DNA from: an uncultured Oscillospiraceae bacterium
GTDB lineage: Bacteria; Bacillota; Clostridia; Oscillospirales; Oscillospiraceae
Direction: 5' to 3'
NCBI GenBank assembly: GCA_947587025.1
Contig: CANPXW010000001.1
Location: 33,846-97,845, forward strand
DNA: 64,000 bases
Shown piece by piece: positions 21,823 to 40,690 of this stretch. The position numbers were made by a program, and so were the translations under genes. Within the stretch, counting starts at the first letter, position 1. Every line of letters starts with the position of its first letter. Below the pieces are notes generated by a model, which worked only from the letters and a program-made list of their open reading frames with translations, ran no database searches and was not told where the DNA came from.

Positions 21823-21887
21823 ATATCGGGCCGCGTTCCAAGGGCGCGGGCAAAAGCCCGCATCCAAAAACAGCGCCGCTCAACACA

Positions 21888-21990
21888 TCTTCTTCCATCC
21901 AGACTTTCACTGTCGGTCCCGGAGTTCCACCGGGTCAGCTTTCGCTCGCGGACTGTACCGCCGATCGGGAATTGCACCCTGCCCTGAAGA
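21888..21990 (-). ncRNA. FMN riboswitch (RFN element)
   Basis: Reverse complement: tcttcaGGGCAGGGTGcAATTCCCGAtCGGCGGTacAGTCCGCGAGC...TGACCCGGTGGAACTCCGGGACCGACAGTgAAAGTCTGGATGGaAGAAGA. Confidence 0.97.
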
Positions 21991-22018
21991 CATCGTTCGC
22001 TCTTCGGTTGTCAACAAC

Positions 22019-33478: not shown

Positions 33479-34984
33479 ATGCTGCAACATATCGTTCCGG
33501 CCAGCGGCCTGCTGTTCACGCTGCAGAACATCCTGTGGATCAACATCGGCGTGTTCATCGGCGCCGTGTTCGCCGCCATCCCCGGCCTGACGGTCATCCT
33601 GTGCGTCATCCTGTTCCTGCCGGTGACCTACTCCATGTCGGCCATCCCCGGTATGATGTTCCTGCTGGGCATCTACTGCGCCGGCGGCTACGGGGGCAGC
33701 GTCTCGGCCATCCTCATCAACACCCCCGGCACGCCCCACGCCGCCGCCACCATGCTGGACGGCCATCCCCTGTCCAAGATGGGCCGCACCAAGGCGGCGC
33801 TGAAGATCGCCCTGTACGCATCCACCTTCGGCGGGATATTCTCCGCCCTGGCGCTACTGTTTTTGGGCCCCCAGGTGGCCAAGCTGGCCGCCCAGCTGGG
33901 CACGGCGGAGTGCTTCATGGTGTGCGTGTTCGGCCTGACCATCATCGCCGGCGTGTCCGGCAAGAGCATGGTCCGGGGCATCATCGCCGCCTGCCTGGGC
34001 CTGCTCATCTCCTGCATCGGCTCCGACCCCATGACCAGCTACGACCGGTTCACCTTCGGCATCAACCGGCTGTACCTGGGCCTGGACCTGGCGGTGTGCC
34101 TGATCGGCCTGTTCGCCCTGGTGGAGATCGTCAGCCGCGCCGAGCAGAAGCCCGGCGAGCTGCACATGGACACCGCCAAGATGCACGACAACGGCGTCAT
34201 CACCAAGGACGAGTACAAGCGCCTGGCCCGGCCGACTATCCTGGGCTCGCTGATCGGCGTGATGGTGGGCATCATCCCCGGCACCGGCGCGTCCGAGGCG
34301 TCCTGGTTCAGCTACAGCCAGGCCAAGAACATGTCCAGGCACAAGGAGGAGTTCGGCAAGGGCTCCGTGGAGGGCATCGCGGCGGCCGAATCGGCCAACA
34401 ACGCCGTCACCGGCGCCACCCTCATCCCGCTGCTGACCCTGGGCATCCCCGGGGACGGCACGGTGGCCATCATGCTCTCCGCGCTGATGATCAACGGCCT
34501 GAACCCCGGCCTTTCGCTGTTCACCACCCAGGGCGACATCATGTACGCCATCATGCTGGGGCTCATTCTGGTGAACCTCTTCATGCTCATCCAGGGCAAG
34601 CTGCTCACCCCCATCTTCGCCAAGGTGGTGTCCATCCCCCAGGAGATACTCACGCCTATCATCGTCATCTTCTGCTTCGCCGGGGCCTACTCGGTGAACA
34701 AGAACTACTTCGACGTGGGCGTGGCGCTGGTGTTCTGCGTGCTGGCGTGGGTGCTGCGCAAGCTGGATATGCCCCCGGTGCCCATCCTGCTGGGCCTGGT
34801 GCTGGGCAAGATGACCGAGACCAACTTCCGCCGCGCGCTGCTTATTTCCGACGGCAGCCCGAAAATATTTTTCAGCAGCGTGTACTGCTGGATATTCATC
34901 GGCCTGATCGTGCTGGCGGTGGGCACCATCCTGCGGGGCAAGCTCAAGGACCGCAAGGCGGCGGCAGCGAAGGAGGAGACGTAA
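33479..34984 (+). CDS. tctA: Tripartite tricarboxylate transporter permease TctA
   Basis: IPGLTVILCVILFLPVTYSM...YCAGGYGGSVSAILINTPGTPHAAATMLDGHPL...ESANNAVTGATLIPLLTLGIPGD. Confidence 0.96.
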   Translation: MLQHIVPASGLLFTLQNILWINIGVFIGAVFAAIPGLTVILCVILFLPVTYSMSAIPGMMFLLGIYCAGGYGGSVSAILINTPGTPHAAATMLDGHPLSKMGRTKAALKIALYASTFGGIFSALALLFLGPQVAKLAAQLGTAECFMVCVFGLTIIAGVSGKSMVRGIIAACLGLLISCIGSDPMTSYDRFTFGINRLYLGLDLAVCLIGLFALVEIVSRAEQKPGELHMDTAKMHDNGVITKDEYKRLARPTILGSLIGVMVGIIPGTGASEASWFSYSQAKNMSRHKEEFGKGSVEGIAAAESANNAVTGATLIPLLTLGIPGDGTVAIMLSALMINGLNPGLSLFTTQGDIMYAIMLGLILVNLFMLIQGKLLTPIFAKVVSIPQEILTPIIVIFCFAGAYSVNKNYFDVGVALVFCVLAWVLRKLDMPPVPILLGLVLGKMTETNFRRALLISDGSPKIFFSSVYCWIFIGLIVLAVGTILRGKLKDRKAAAAKEET

Positions 34985-36337
34985 ATGCCCTACAATATCG
35001 TATTCTACTTCACCGACCAGCAGCGCTGGGACACCTGCGGCTGCTTCGGCCAGCCGCTGCCCATCACCCCGAACCTGGATAAGCTGGCGGCGGAGGGCGT
35101 CAAATTCGACAACGCCTTCTCCCCCCAGCCGGTGTGCGGCCCCTGCCGGGCCCTGTTCCAGACCGGCCGCTGGCCCACCGAGACCGGGTGCTTCCGCAAC
35201 AACATCATGCTCCCGGCGAGGGTGAAGACCCTGGGCCAGTACATAGAAGAGGCGGGCTACGAGACCGCCTACATCGGCAAGTGGCACCTGGCCAGCGACG
35301 GGGAGCTGGAGAAACCCCCGGTGGTGGACCACACTGTCACCGCCATCCCCCGCGAGCTGCGGGGCGGCTATACCGGCTACTGGCGGACGGCGGACGTGCT
35401 GGAGTTCACCTCCCACGGCTACGACGGGTTCGTGTTCGACGAAAACGACAGGCGCATCGACTTCAAGGGCTACCGGGCCGACTGCATCAACGACATGGCC
35501 TTGGAGTTTTTCGACACCTACGATCGGAAAAAGCCCTTCTTTATGACCATCAGCCAGATCGAGCCCCACCATCAGAACGACCACCGGCACTACGAGGGGC
35601 CGGAGGGCTCCAAGGAGCGGTTCCGTGATTTCGTCCTGCCCCCGGACCTGGCGGCCCTGGGGGGCAACGCGGCGGAGGAGTACCCGGACTATCTGGGCCA
35701 GTGCGCCGCCCTGGACGAGAACCTGGGCCGGCTCGTGGACAGGCTGAAAAAGGAGGGACTGTACGACGATACGGTCATCATCTTCGCCTCCGACCACGGC
35801 AGCCACTTTATGACCCGCAACCGGGACGGGCACCTCAACGGCTACGACGACTACAAGCGCTCCTGCCACGACGGGTGCCTGCACGTGCCGCTGGTCATCG
35901 CCGGCGGGCCCTACAAGGGCGGCATGGCGATCCAGGAGCTGGTGAGCACCGCCAGCCTGCCCAAGACCATCCTGGCCATCGCCGGGGTGGACGTGGGAGA
36001 CGCCATGATCGGTGAGGACCTGCTGGGCGTGGTGCAGCACCGTGACCCGGACCGGCCCAACGAGGTGTTCGCCCAGATCTCCGAGAGCCGGGTGGGACGG
36101 TGCGTACGCACGCCCCAGTGGCTGTACTCGGTGTACGCCCCCGGCGTCAACGGCGGCGAGGCCGCTGCGGCGGACGTGTACGCGGACGATTTCCTCTACG
36201 ACATGGAGAAGGACCCCTGGCAGCTTCAAAACGTGGTCACCGACCCGGCCTACGCCGCCGTCAAGGCCCAGCTTCGTGAAAAACTGCTGGCCTGGATCGA
36301 GCAGGCGGAGGCAGTCCGTCCCGACATCACCGACTGA
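34985..36337 (+). CDS. Sulfatase (Cys-type, arylsulfatase family)
   Basis: CGPCRALFQTGRWP (CxPxR formylglycine motif); IFASDHGSHF; start adjoins tctA stop. Confidence 0.92.
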   Translation: MPYNIVFYFTDQQRWDTCGCFGQPLPITPNLDKLAAEGVKFDNAFSPQPVCGPCRALFQTGRWPTETGCFRNNIMLPARVKTLGQYIEEAGYETAYIGKWHLASDGELEKPPVVDHTVTAIPRELRGGYTGYWRTADVLEFTSHGYDGFVFDENDRRIDFKGYRADCINDMALEFFDTYDRKKPFFMTISQIEPHHQNDHRHYEGPEGSKERFRDFVLPPDLAALGGNAAEEYPDYLGQCAALDENLGRLVDRLKKEGLYDDTVIIFASDHGSHFMTRNRDGHLNGYDDYKRSCHDGCLHVPLVIAGGPYKGGMAIQELVSTASLPKTILAIAGVDVGDAMIGEDLLGVVQHRDPDRPNEVFAQISESRVGRCVRTPQWLYSVYAPGVNGGEAAAADVYADDFLYDMEKDPWQLQNVVTDPAYAAVKAQLREKLLAWIEQAEAVRPDITD

Positions 36338-36385: not shown

Positions 36386-36951
36386 CTGATGTCTCTGATG
36401 AATGGGAAGTTGTACTTTATGACGGAGTTTTCCAGCCCCGTGATCTCGTCAGACTTGCGATTGAGCGTCACCATGAAGGAATACATGACCGCCGACATCG
36501 CGCCGCAGAACAGCCCCCAGGTGCTGCCTGCTCCTGCCAGCTTTCCGTTGACGAGCACGATGCCGATCAGAACGATGGCAAAGCCCGCGACTTTGGGCTT
36601 GTCAGCGCTCCTGAAACAATAGCGGCGACAGGATCATAACGATGACCGGCCCGCAATAGTACAGCAGCGACGCGAAGCTGACGCCGAGGCGCTGATATGC
36701 TTCATAGAGGAACATCCAGCTGGTGCCCATCGCTATGCCAGAGAGCATTATGAGGAGAACATCTCTCCTGTGTCCTTTCAAGTGGAACTTGTTCTTTCCC
36801 AGCAGGAAAAGCAGGATCAGAAGAGCGCTGCCGATCATCGTCCTGAGAAAAACGATCTCATAGCTGTTGAGAGCGATATGGTCTGCGACGATGCCGTTCA
36901 AGCCAAACAGCAGTAAGGCACAAAGATATTTTATAAGCGCTTTTTATCCAT
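36380..36951 (-). pseudogene. EamA/DMT transporter pseudogene (two frameshifts, C-terminal truncation)
   Basis: Pieces in successive frames: MDKKRL / IKYLCALLLFGLNGIVADHIALNSYEIVFLRTMIG...SPLLFQER / ADKPKVAGFAIVLIGIVLVNGKLAGAGSTWGLFCGAMSAVMYSFMVTLNRKSDEITGLENSVI. Confidence 0.82.
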
Positions 36952-37090: not shown

Positions 37091-38620
37091 TCAGTTTTTC
37101 CGCAGCTGGCCGGACAGCCAGTCGATGGCCCACACCAGCAGCACCAGGCCGATGGCGATGGCCCCAGCGGTGGGCCAGTCGAAGTGGTCCATGGCGAACA
37201 CCAGCGGCGCGCCGATGCCCCCCGCGCCCACCAGGCCCAGCACCGACGCCTCACGGATGTTCACGTCGAACCGGTACAGCACCGCCGAGCCGAAGGCCGG
37301 CCCCAGCTGGGGCAGAAGAGCCCAGCGGACCCGGGAGAGGACCGGCACGCCCATGGACGCCAGCGCCCGGTAGGCCCGCATGTCCATGGTGTCGATGGCC
37401 TGGCCGAACCGCTTGGATATGAGCCCCACGCTGCACACGGCGATGGTGAGCACGCCGGTGAAGGGGCCCGGCCCGGTGGCCCGGATGAAAATGAGGCCGT
37501 ACACCAGAAAGGGCACGGCGCGGATGGCCAGGCACACGGTCCGGCCCAGCAGCGCCACAGGGCGGGGCATGAGCCGGCCGGAGCCCAGCAGCGCCAGTGG
37601 GAAGCTGGCCAGCGCCCCCAGCACCGTGCCGGCCAGAGCGATGGCCACCGTCTCCAGCAGCAGGTATCCCAGCCCGCCGGCGCCTGTGTCGAAGAAAAAG
37701 CCCCAATCGGGATGGACGAGACCTCCCAGCATGGCGGCCGCAGTGCGCAGACTGGTCCGGGCAAAGTCCGGCCGGCCCACCGTGGCGGCGCTGACCAGCG
37801 TCAGGACCACGGCCGCCGCGATGATGACCCGGCGGAGGGTCCGGCCGGCCTTGCGCCGGCCGGTGACAAGGGCGGTGAGATAGGCGCTCAGGCTCTCGAT
37901 GAGACACACGGCCAGGAACAGCGCCAGCAGGATGGAGCCCACCTTTTCATACTCCCGCCAGGAGATCTTCTCATTGAGCAGCAGCCCTATGCCGCCGGCC
38001 CCCACGTAGCCCAATATGGCGCTGTGGCGCACGTTGGTCTCCAGCAGATACAGCGCGTTGGTCAGGTACGTGGACGCGACGGAGGGGAACATTCCCCGGA
38101 AAAAGGCCCGGTAGGGGGGCGTGCCCATAGTCAGCAGCGCCCGGAATGCCCCGTCGGGGGCGGTCTCGATGTCGTCGCTGGTCAGCCGGGCCATGATGGC
38201 GAAGGTGTACACCGTGATGGCGGCGGTGCCGGCGAAGGGACCGATGCCGACGAGGAACGTGGCTGTCAGGGCCAGGATGAGGGCGGGGAAGGTGCGCGTC
38301 AGCTGCACCAGCGCCCGCAGCGCTGTGCGCAGCGGGGCGGGGAAGGGCAGATTTCCCGCGCACAGGGGCGCGGCGGCCAGGGCCAGCAGCGCGCCCAGGG
38401 CCGTGCCGGCCACGGACATCTGCACTGTGGCCCACAGGGGGGCCAGGATGCGGGGGAACCAGCCCCAGTCCGGGGGGAACATTTTGACCAGGATGTCGGC
38501 AAGGTGTCCCCGCCGGGACCACAGCAGGGCCGGGTCACAGCCGGTGAAGGCGGCGGCCAGAAAGAACAGCGCCAGCGCCGCCAGGACCAGCAGCGCGCCC
38601 CGGCGTCTTTGCAGCCTCAT
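37091..38620 (-). CDS. phnE: Phosphonate-type ABC transporter permease, two fused PhnE modules
   Basis: Duplicated EEA-like loops ALLTMGTPPYRAFFRGMFPS and ALASMGVPVLSRVRWALLP; VGAGGIG twice. Confidence 0.92.
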   Translation of the reverse strand: MRLQRRRGALLVLAALALFFLAAAFTGCDPALLWSRRGHLADILVKMFPPDWGWFPRILAPLWATVQMSVAGTALGALLALAAAPLCAGNLPFPAPLRTALRALVQLTRTFPALILALTATFLVGIGPFAGTAAITVYTFAIMARLTSDDIETAPDGAFRALLTMGTPPYRAFFRGMFPSVASTYLTNALYLLETNVRHSAILGYVGAGGIGLLLNEKISWREYEKVGSILLALFLAVCLIESLSAYLTALVTGRRKAGRTLRRVIIAAAVVLTLVSAATVGRPDFARTSLRTAAAMLGGLVHPDWGFFFDTGAGGLGYLLLETVAIALAGTVLGALASFPLALLGSGRLMPRPVALLGRTVCLAIRAVPFLVYGLIFIRATGPGPFTGVLTIAVCSVGLISKRFGQAIDTMDMRAYRALASMGVPVLSRVRWALLPQLGPAFGSAVLYRFDVNIREASVLGLVGAGGIGAPLVFAMDHFDWPTAGAIAIGLVLLVWAIDWLSGQLRKN

Positions 38621-39372
38621 GGGGCAGCCTCCCCGCCACCGTACACCGCCGCCAGCGCCTGGTCCGGCACGTCAGCCGGCCCGTCGTAGACCACGCGCCC
38701 GGTGTTCAGGCCGATGAGCCGGTCGGAAAACTCCTTTGCCAGGGCCAGATCATGGCTGTTCATCAGCACGGTCAGCCCTTCGGTGCGCCGGATGTCCTGC
38801 AAAAGCTCCATGATCTGCCGGCCGGTGACCGGGTCCAGGGAGGCCACCGGCTCGTCGGCCAGCAGCAGGGCCGGCCGGCGCATCAGCGCCCGGGCGATGG
38901 CCACCCGCTGCTTCTGTCCGCCGGAAAGCTGGTGCACCGGCGCGTCCAGCTTGTCGGCAAGACCCACCCTGTCCAGCAGAGCGGCGGCCTCGTCCCGCCG
39001 CTGTCTGCCGAAGGCGCCGGCCAGAGCGGGAAGGGGGGACATGTCGGGCAGGGCGGCGTTCAACACGTTCTGCAGGGCGCTGGCCTGTTCCACCAGGGCG
39101 AAATCCTGCCAGATGGAGCCCAGGCGGCGCTGCAGGGCCCGGAGCGCGCCGCCCCGGGCCTGGTCCAGACGCACGCCGTCCAGCTCGATCTGGCCGGCGT
39201 CGCAGCGCTCCGCGCCGCACAGCAGCCGGACCAGGGTGGTCTTGCCCGCGCCGGAGGGGCCGATCACGGATACGAACTGCCCCTCGGCCACGGCAAAGCT
39301 CACCCCGTCCAGCGCCCGGACGGAGCCGCCGTTATAGCTTTTGCAAACGTCCTGCAGCCGGAGAAACATCAC
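38617..39372 (-). CDS. phnC: Phosphonate-type ABC transporter ATP-binding protein
   Basis: VIGPSGAGKTTLVRLLCG...LSGGQKQRVAIARALMRRPALLLADEPVASLDP. Confidence 0.95.
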   Translation of the reverse strand: MMFLRLQDVCKSYNGGSVRALDGVSFAVAEGQFVSVIGPSGAGKTTLVRLLCGAERCDAGQIELDGVRLDQARGGALRALQRRLGSIWQDFALVEQASALQNVLNAALPDMSPLPALAGAFGRQRRDEAAALLDRVGLADKLDAPVHQLSGGQKQRVAIARALMRRPALLLADEPVASLDPVTGRQIMELLQDIRRTEGLTVLMNSHDLALAKEFSDRLIGLNTGRVVYDGPADVPDQALAAVYGGGEAAP

Positions 39373-40409
39373 TCTTCCATTTCCCGCAGCAGCGCCTGGG
39401 CGGCCCGCTCACCGTCGTAATCGGCGTCCTGGCCCCAGGTGTAGCCCACCTGGCTGAACACGCCGAAGATGGCCTGGCCCTCCTCGGTCTGGGCAAGATC
39501 GATGAACGCCTGGCCCAGGGCGGTGCGGAAATCCTCGTCAGCCATCAGCTGGGAGGTCTTGCTGTAGGCGATCATGTCGTTGTAGATGCCGTCGGTGACG
39601 CCTATCACGTCCGTCTCGTCCGCCATGGGCCCGTCCGCGCCAAAGTCGCTCTCCCAGATGGGGGCGTTCTTGATGCGGATGTGGCCGTAGGAGACCATCA
39701 CGTCCACCTGCTTGGCCGCCAGACGGGCCACGGAGGTGGTGTGGGAGTCGGACTGGATGACGTTATCCAGATCGCTTATGGACTTGCCGTAGTTGTCCTG
39801 CAGCCACAGGCAGGGGTAGATGTAGCCGGAGGAGGAGGTGGGGTCCAGCACGGACCATGTGGCGTCGTTCAGATCGTCCCAGGTCAGCTCCTGGCCGGCG
39901 TTGACCTTCTCCGCCAGGGCGCGGCCCTTCTCACTGGGACCGGCCAGCACGATGCAGCGGTAGTAGGTGCTCATGTCTTCGGTGTTCTCCTCGATGGTGC
40001 CGTCGTTCCAGTCGGCGGGGTCCTCGGAGTCCTTGTTGATGGCGTAGCGCAGGGCGGTGAGCAGCACGTCGCAGTCGTCGGAGAACAGCACGTAGTTGCC
40101 TCCGGAGATGAAGCCGATGTCCGCGCTGCCGGCGGAGAGAGCCTCGCCCACGGCGGTGTAGCTGGTGCCCACGGTCATGTCGATGTCCGCCACGTCGTAG
40201 CCCGCCTTGAGCAGCTCGTCGTGCAGAAGGCTCTCCAGCGGCTCGGTGGCGGTGACGATCTGGTCCGCGTCGGCGTAGGGGGAGAAGGCGATCTTCAGCG
40301 AGTCGATCTTCACGGGGTCCTCACCGGCGGCCAGGGCGGTCCCTCCCAGGGAGAACAGTCCCAGGCACAGGGCCAGGACGGTGAGCAGGGTCAGCAGTTG
40401 CTTTTTCAT
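39369..40409 (-). CDS. phnD: Phosphate/phosphite/phosphonate ABC transporter substrate-binding protein
   Basis: Signal peptide; IAFSPYADADQIVTATEPLESLLHDELLKAGYDVADIDMTVGTSYTAVGEALSAGSADIGFISGGNYV. Confidence 0.93.
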   Translation of the reverse strand: MKKQLLTLLTVLALCLGLFSLGGTALAAGEDPVKIDSLKIAFSPYADADQIVTATEPLESLLHDELLKAGYDVADIDMTVGTSYTAVGEALSAGSADIGFISGGNYVLFSDDCDVLLTALRYAINKDSEDPADWNDGTIEENTEDMSTYYRCIVLAGPSEKGRALAEKVNAGQELTWDDLNDATWSVLDPTSSSGYIYPCLWLQDNYGKSISDLDNVIQSDSHTTSVARLAAKQVDVMVSYGHIRIKNAPIWESDFGADGPMADETDVIGVTDGIYNDMIAYSKTSQLMADEDFRTALGQAFIDLAQTEEGQAIFGVFSQVGYTWGQDADYDGERAAQALLREMEE

Positions 40410-40439
40410 GTTCGATACCTCCAGATTTTTAAGTCCGCC

Positions 40440-40652
40440 CGGAAAGAAAAAGGGACATGCGCAGCCGCGCATGTCCTCTTTGACGCCCAGGCAGCTGCTG
40501 ACGGCCCGGCGTATGCCGGGCAGTGGGGCGGTCGGTCCTTGCTGGGACCCTCTCAACCCGGAACACGGGCTCCCTCGCGATCTGGTCTCGTCAATCAATA
40601 TGCTATTGAGCGCGACGTCAGGGCGCTCCCCCAGCCGCCGCATTCCGCAACC
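40440..40652 (-). ncRNA. Structured leader RNA upstream of phnD ending in an intrinsic terminator; candidate riboswitch/attenuator of unassigned class
   Basis: Promoter at 40659-40687; closing helix gcggcggctg/cagcagctgc; internal stems incl. TCGCG/CGCGA and gcccggc-atac-gccgggc; terminator ggacatgcgc-ggct-gcgcatgtcc-CTTTTTC. Confidence 0.6.
40449..40476 (-). terminator. Leader terminator upstream of phnD
   Basis: Minus strand ggacatgcgc-ggct-gcgcatgtcc then CTTTTTC. Confidence 0.85.
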
Positions 40653-40658
40653 GGGGAC

Positions 40659-40687
40659 AGTGTATCACAACGCCGTGGATTTGGCAA
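40659..40687 (-). promoter_or_regulatory. Promoter for phnDCE leader
   Basis: Minus strand TTGCCA-17 bp-TACACT. Confidence 0.7.
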
Positions 40688-40690
40688 GGC

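Follow-up and report, generated by a model that had tools for sequence, protein, structure and literature searches.

The window, by which we mean the whole stretch of 64,000 nucleotides analysed from an uncultured Oscillospiraceae bacterium, carries a phnDCE transporter locus on its minus strand. The genes encode a PhnD-like substrate-binding protein (PF12974; 39369..40409), assigned from its profile, fold and orthologs and proposed here to bind a thiamin precursor, and, from profile matches, a PhnC-like ATPase (38617..39372) and a PhnE-like double permease of 509 amino acids (37091..38620). The frame after phnE (36602-36901, minus strand) resembles a fragment of an EamA-type membrane protein and is a possible further operon member. 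Opposite to phnDCE lie a TctA-type tripartite tricarboxylate transporter gene and then a sulfatase-family hydrolase (33479-36337, plus strand). An FMN riboswitch (110.9 bits) was also found in the window, at 21883-21995 on the minus strand.

The minus-strand leader of phnDCE comprises a promoter, a structured region of about 200 nt and an intrinsic terminator, followed by the phnD start; the leader is taken as 40440-40660. An earlier note on this DNA had proposed the promoter TTGCCA-17-TACACT (40687-40659), which is of the sigma-70 type, was expected 0 times in shuffles and recurs with its 17-nt spacing in relatives. The terminator that it placed before phnD (GGACATGCGC-GGCT-GCGCATGTCC-CTTTTTC; 40476-40447) was likewise upheld, with 0.2 expected in shuffles, and the phnD ATG lies at 40409, about 40 nt beyond the terminator as described, behind a Shine-Dalgarno sequence, GGAGG, recognised by its letters (40418..40422). 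Folding stability of the leader was modestly unusual by thermodynamics alone (z -1.85); the case for the leader is carried by conservation and covariation rather than by thermodynamic stability.

Read 5' to 3', the variants share the order Pa, variable linker, P1, GA(U) bulge, P2, P3 with a U-starting loop, UGAGAG, P3b, GACCG, third arm and P1 3' strand. In the window, Pa is a local hairpin at 40641-40612 (GCGGCGGCTGGG-[GGAGCG]-CCCTGACGTCGC, that is GCGGCG...GGAGCG...CGTCGC, loop at 40629-40624), followed by a linker of variable length (40587..40611) delimited by comparison of phn-type leaders and by the P1 5' strand ACCAGATCGC (40577..40586). The next segment, GAGGGA (P2 and the GA bulge) with the P3 hairpin GCCCG-TGTTC-CGGGT (40556..40576), contains an invariant GGGA and leads into J3-2 UGAGAG (40550..40555), the pyrimidine-pocket motif common to TPP riboswitches, which was invariant in 99/99 sequences and is covered by the alignment to RF00059. 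P3b, GGTCC-CAGCAA-GGACC (40534..40549), is the GGTCC/GGACC stem already noted at this locus; it covaries in relatives and ranked highest among all column pairs. The P2 3' strand GACCG (40529..40533) ends in G in 98/99 sequences, the canonical TPP form being GACCC. The third arm (40505..40528) occupies the place of the TPP pyrophosphate arm, P4/P5, and showed no conservation across the variants; the hairpin CCCGGC-ATAC-GCCGGG reported there does exist, but its sequence is not conserved. The P1 3' strand and its extension, GCAGCTGCCTGGGCGTCA (40481..40498), would pair imperfectly with 40577-40586 and the linker, as judged from relatives, and the linker's 3' end, UGACG, could pair with 40485-40481 and thereby lengthen P1 in the phn type.

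Across 99 distinct sequences, the elements GAGC, GA(U)GGGA and UGAGAG were invariant or nearly so. The core of the Pa loop, GAGC, did not vary in any of the 99, and the loop was closed by three pairs in every aligned sequence, although the script left the Pa hairpin unparsed in five of the further loci. Three helices, Pa, P3 and P3b, covaried strongly: they were paired in 77-100% of sequences, one mismatch position excepted, with up to four Watson-Crick pair types. Each of the top eight covarying column pairs belonged to a proposed helix, P3b, P3 or Pa, in a ranking that preserves the relatedness among sequences but is a different test from R-scape. Partners for P1 were picked by complementarity (for example ACTAAATAGC/GCTATTTAGT, and ACCGGGATGC/GCATCCTGGG among sequences added later) and jointly outperformed dinucleotide shuffles over 55 loci (combined p ~2e-12); in the window alone, P1 was not significant against such shuffles. 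Two stems drawn earlier were displaced by this fold. The strands of the supposed closing helix, GCGGCGGCTG/CAGCAGCTGC, are complementary, but the first of them forms the local, covarying Pa hairpin; the letters of the TCGCG/CGCGA stem are complementary as well, yet they fall outside the supported fold and Pa takes their place. A loop-loop kissing interaction of Pa (GAGC) with P3 (GUUY) was considered and rejected, as the P3 loop varies (UGUGC, UGGAC, UGUAA) and the Pa loop does not.

An Rfam comparison of the leader had been set beforehand as a refutation test, and in the Rfam 15 scan no family reached threshold. At relaxed limits the only chemically sensible match was TPP (RF00059), at 16.1 bits against a gathering score of 54.3, and its alignment to the window runs through CCCG-UGUUC-CGGG, UGAGAG and GGUCC/GGACC, or P3, J3-2 and P3b. 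In the loci scanned, no variant stretch reached the RF00059 gathering score and no Rfam 15 family matched the variant. The TPP class, excluded by eye in the earlier note, is thus a relative of the leader, in its pyrimidine half only. We built a covariance model from 13 variant relatives only; because this model also picks up canonical TPP aptamers, at E ~1e-5, we conclude that the two share ancestry and, on sequence homology, that the motif is descended from half of a TPP riboswitch. Variants scored ~46-123 bits and canonical TPP riboswitches mostly ~15-37 bits, with the boundary set at ~46 bits; one canonical riboswitch (L097) reached 46.5 and a few more lay at 38-44 bits. Canonical TPP riboswitches coexist in variant-bearing genomes, so the variant is not mere drift of a sole copy.

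The description of the locus as an unassigned structured leader and candidate new riboswitch therefore stands against both refutation tests set in the earlier note, there being no significant Rfam match and strong covariation in a conserved element. With that covariation, the leader is kept in front of homologous phnD genes and well outside them: five further genomes of the window's genus have it before phnD, and one more partial match was seen before thiW. A search with the exact core pattern returned 14 database loci, lying before phnDCE in Oscillospiraceae and Clostridia MAGs and before thiW in Selenomonadales, Megamonas and one Oscillospiraceae MAG; the IMG/VR scan with the same pattern gave no match. 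With the covariance model, variants were found in ~37/394 Oscillospirales and ~18/391 Clostridia genomes (score boundary) and in 64/351 Negativicutes genomes (E 1e-6), the label of this last set (G805) resting on named loci of Megamonas and Selenomonadales (L050, L049, L057) that recur in it at identical positions. No description of the motif was found in the literature searched, and the family is apparently a widespread, hitherto undescribed riboswitch-like RNA.

Every readable instance of the motif precedes thiamin-precursor genes, namely thiW/thiM/thiE, a ThiL/ThiN-type fusion, or phnDCE. The first 57 instances preceded thiW (43), phnD (13) and thiM-thiE (1), and a further 54 preceded thiW (31), phnD (16), thiM (3) and an AIRS/ThiL-like-ThiN fusion (2), the last two lying at a contig end and in a cytX-thiW-thiM operon. 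The labels were mostly assigned by script on motif matches, with representatives of ThiW, ThiM, ThiE and PhnDCE identified by NCBIfam and Pfam. The fusion, found at L198 and L200 (genomes G1002 and G1041), joins an AIRS/ThiL-like domain to a ThiN TMP synthase. Directly upstream of the variant, on its strand, 32 loci carry a canonical TPP riboswitch that reaches the gathering score; two loci (L074, L087) have TPP-TPP-variant triples, with three thiamin-type aptamers in series before thiW-thiM, and in two others (L187, L181) the variant is part of a TPP-cytX operon, immediately ahead of the thiazole genes. At L073 a pan motif (RF01749; 1894-1991, plus strand) adjoins the TPP and variant tandem on the opposite strand.

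By analogy, the TPP and variant loci share the layout of known pairs of TPP and HMP-PP riboswitches at thiW. In the published pairs, one of them at C. lundense thiW, HMP-PP turns expression on when TPP is low (PMC6478431, PMC9481103). The HMP-PP riboswitch (thiS motif, PMC6478431) resembles our motif in its genes, which serve thiazole supply and TMP synthesis (thiW, thiE), and in its frequent place immediately behind a TPP riboswitch; it is, however, a very small aptamer built into a terminator stem, whereas the variant is a TPP-like multi-arm aptamer apart from the terminator or ribosome-binding site. The variant aptamer lies upstream of its terminator rather than within it, and the scored thiW-tandem members end in the ribosome-binding region. 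Tandem TPP-TPP riboswitches are also known (PMC9481103) and likewise set one TPP-related aptamer after another ahead of thiamin genes, but in the variant tandems the second element is without a pyrophosphate arm and is unrecognised as TPP.

The regulon also bears on the transporter, whose substrate had been left as phosphonate, phosphite or other; a setting of thiamin-precursor salvage points away from the first two. PhnDCE resembles the phosphonate transporters in gene order and in its families (PF12974, PhnC, PhnE), and differs in its thiamin-precursor RNA element, its genome context of thiazole auxotrophy and a PhnD below the curated cut-offs. PhnD scored 110.4 bits against PF12974 (gathering score 27), but 41.6 bits against the phosphonate PhnD equivalog TIGR03431 (cut-off 261.1) and 88.4 bits against the phosphonate/phosphite subfamily TIGR01098 (cut-off 112.05); PhnE matched TIGR01097 in two stretches at 416.3 bits, above the cut-off of 216.7. 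PhnD keeps the SxSG motif, which may also serve phosphonate. Its fold matches included PtxB, PhnD and AioX, and Mycoplasma p37/MG289 (CypI), described as thiamin-binding (PMC6609329), was among the fold and profile matches. The likeness to p37/MG289 consists of a related fold and weak profile similarity; sequence similarity is low. The predicted PhnD fold (mean pLDDT 67, pTM 0.51) is too weak for its pocket to be read. Sixteen Negativicutes PhnDs, 45-51% identical to that of the window, carry the same motif.

Within the window's genus, ThiM was detected only in G007, G012 and G021, and ThiW in G007 and G021. In the six phnDCE genomes of the genus, one of them 96% complete, ThiM, ThiW and real ThiG were not found; ThiG matches in the genus were short and partial (~40-90 of 247 positions) and were not accepted. 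Several of the MAGs compared are incomplete (73-80%). Two of the phnDCE genomes (G024, G006) have a thiE-HAD-thiD-cytX-thiN operon without thiM, and thiM comes first in G007, G012 and G021; these operons were identified by NCBIfam in G024 and G012. An operon of this kind without thiM leaves ThiE with no source of HET-P unless it is imported. The HAD phosphatase between thiE and thiD (L142 and L145, in G012 and G024) is a candidate TMP phosphatase. At L139 and L140 (G029, G018), a TPP riboswitch, thiD, tenA and an NMT1/SsuA-type ABC transporter are divergent from variant-controlled phnDCE.

ThiM was present in 4/13 phnDCE genomes and in 4/7 of those outside the genus. As it occurs in some of these genomes and is absent from others, the substrate is left between HET and HET-P. 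One genome (G137) uses one variant to drive thiM-thiE, in an operon without thiW, and a second to drive phnDCE, an arrangement that fits HET import. Both thiW and phnDCE are under the motif in some Negativicutes genomes, so PhnDCE need not duplicate ThiW. Taken together, the transporter probably imports a vitamin B1 precursor rather than phosphonate, and its substrate is probably the thiazole or its phosphate (HET or HET-P).

The mode of switching was approached through 21 scorable thiW-type leaders, mostly TPP tandems, in which GCCGUUUYC after P1 can pair either upstream (z < -2 in 11/21) or with the Shine-Dalgarno region. The thiW-tandem loci thus look like a translational ON switch in which the outer helix would compete with anti-Shine-Dalgarno pairing. 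A conserved antiterminator was looked for in phn-type leaders without success. The Pa strand of some Negativicutes thiW leaders could base-pair with the 5' arm of the terminator, a pairing that would suggest OFF control. Masking of the Shine-Dalgarno by the P1 5' strand (CCAGAUU/AAUCUGG) was set aside, being confined to near relatives and probably due to shared ancestry.

In structures of TPP riboswitches, J3-2 binds the aminopyrimidine and P4/P5 binds the pyrophosphate. The variant shares with RF00059 the P1-P2-P3 topology, J3-2 UGAGAG, a P3b-like stem and a thiamin regulon; it differs in having GACCG for GACCC, a GA bulge and an extra 5' hairpin with a GGAGCG loop, and in being without the conserved P4/P5 pyrophosphate arm (CCUGAU...GCGUAGGGA). 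As it keeps the pyrimidine-binding part without the pyrophosphate-binding part, its ligand most likely contains HMP. We therefore favour, as the best explanation overall and with reasonable confidence, a TPP-derived riboswitch that would sense a pyrimidine-containing thiamin intermediate and turn on thiazole supply. Such an aptamer would have retained the arm that recognises the pyrimidine (P2-P3-J3-2 UGAGAG-P3b) and dispensed with the pyrophosphate arm; the conserved 5' hairpin Pa (GGAGCG loop) would be a gain, one that probably completes the ligand pocket. The ligand would most likely be the pyrimidine half of thiamin in the form of HMP-PP (or HMP/HMP-P), and its presence would raise expression of genes for the provision or use of the thiazole half, namely thiW, thiM, thiE/thiN and, at this locus, phnDCE. 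The window's intrinsic terminator would be the point of control, and the thiamin precursor taken up through PhnDCE would probably be HET or HET-P. A wider proposal, of a new class that arose from the TPP riboswitch through loss of the pyrophosphate-sensing arm and recruitment of a 5' hairpin, senses a precursor (HMP-PP or another thiamin intermediate) and, together with canonical TPP riboswitches, makes up two-input gates in Clostridia and in some Negativicutes, with PhnDCE as a new family of thiamin-precursor importers (for thiazole or its phosphate), appears to us evenly balanced between right and wrong.

The same TPP-derived RNA could instead respond to thiamin or thiamin monophosphate. A retained pyrimidine pocket beside a lost pyrophosphate arm would favour ligands without pyrophosphate, and the Breaker laboratory reports, as unpublished work, a preference for thiamin or TMP among certain RNAs assigned to the TPP class (PMC9481103, ref. 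82); those variants could overlap with the class described here. The regulated genes nevertheless concern thiazole supply and coupling rather than thiamin uptake, and a tandem of TPP and thiamin sensors has a less obvious logic than one of TPP and HMP-PP, so that we consider this ligand unlikely, if the most serious of the alternatives. That the variant is a divergent ordinary TPP riboswitch, still binding TPP, and the tandems simply TPP-TPP pairs, is improbable: its arm is homologous to TPP P2-P3, TPP-TPP tandems have precedent (PMC9481103) and two loci hold the triples, but no pyrophosphate arm is conserved while an unrelated hairpin is invariant, intact canonical TPP riboswitches occupy the same genomes, and at L187 and L181 the variant stands within a TPP-cytX operon directly ahead of the thiazole genes.

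Two further readings concern the thiazole half and the transporter. If PhnDCE were a true phosphonate or phosphite importer, with the motif there by chance or answering a shared signal, the PF12974 score (110 bits), the PhnE equivalog scores and the fold matches to PtxB, PhnD and AioX would be accounted for; yet PhnD falls far below the equivalog cut-off and also below that of the phosphonate subfamily, the pairing of motif and phnDCE recurs in two classes, and MG289/p37, described as thiamin-binding (PMC6609329), is among the fold and profile matches, which leaves this reading very improbable. Least probable of all, by a similar judgement, is an RNA whose ligand is the thiazole half (HET, HET-P or carboxy-HET-P) and which represses uptake of that ligand. 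The thiazole-specific gene set and the possible OFF pairing in some Negativicutes leaders agree with it, but the retained UGAGAG is the pyrimidine pocket of TPP, the motif also precedes TMP-synthase genes (thiE, thiN), and the alternatives of outer helix and Shine-Dalgarno pairing suggest ON.

The motif occurs in ~10-18% of the sampled Oscillospirales and Negativicutes genomes. If the favoured explanation, sensing of a pyrimidine-containing intermediate by a TPP-derived RNA, is true, the motif would show how nature made one aptamer out of another through exchange of half the ligand pocket, and it would add a second answer, with a different structure, to the "precursor high, TPP low" logic of TPP/HMP-PP tandems. 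Among human gut genomes, ThiW is present in only 64% of HET auxotrophs (PMC6593275). We propose phnDCE as an identity for the missing thiazole transporters, and a transporter family annotated for phosphonate uptake may accordingly be mis-annotated.
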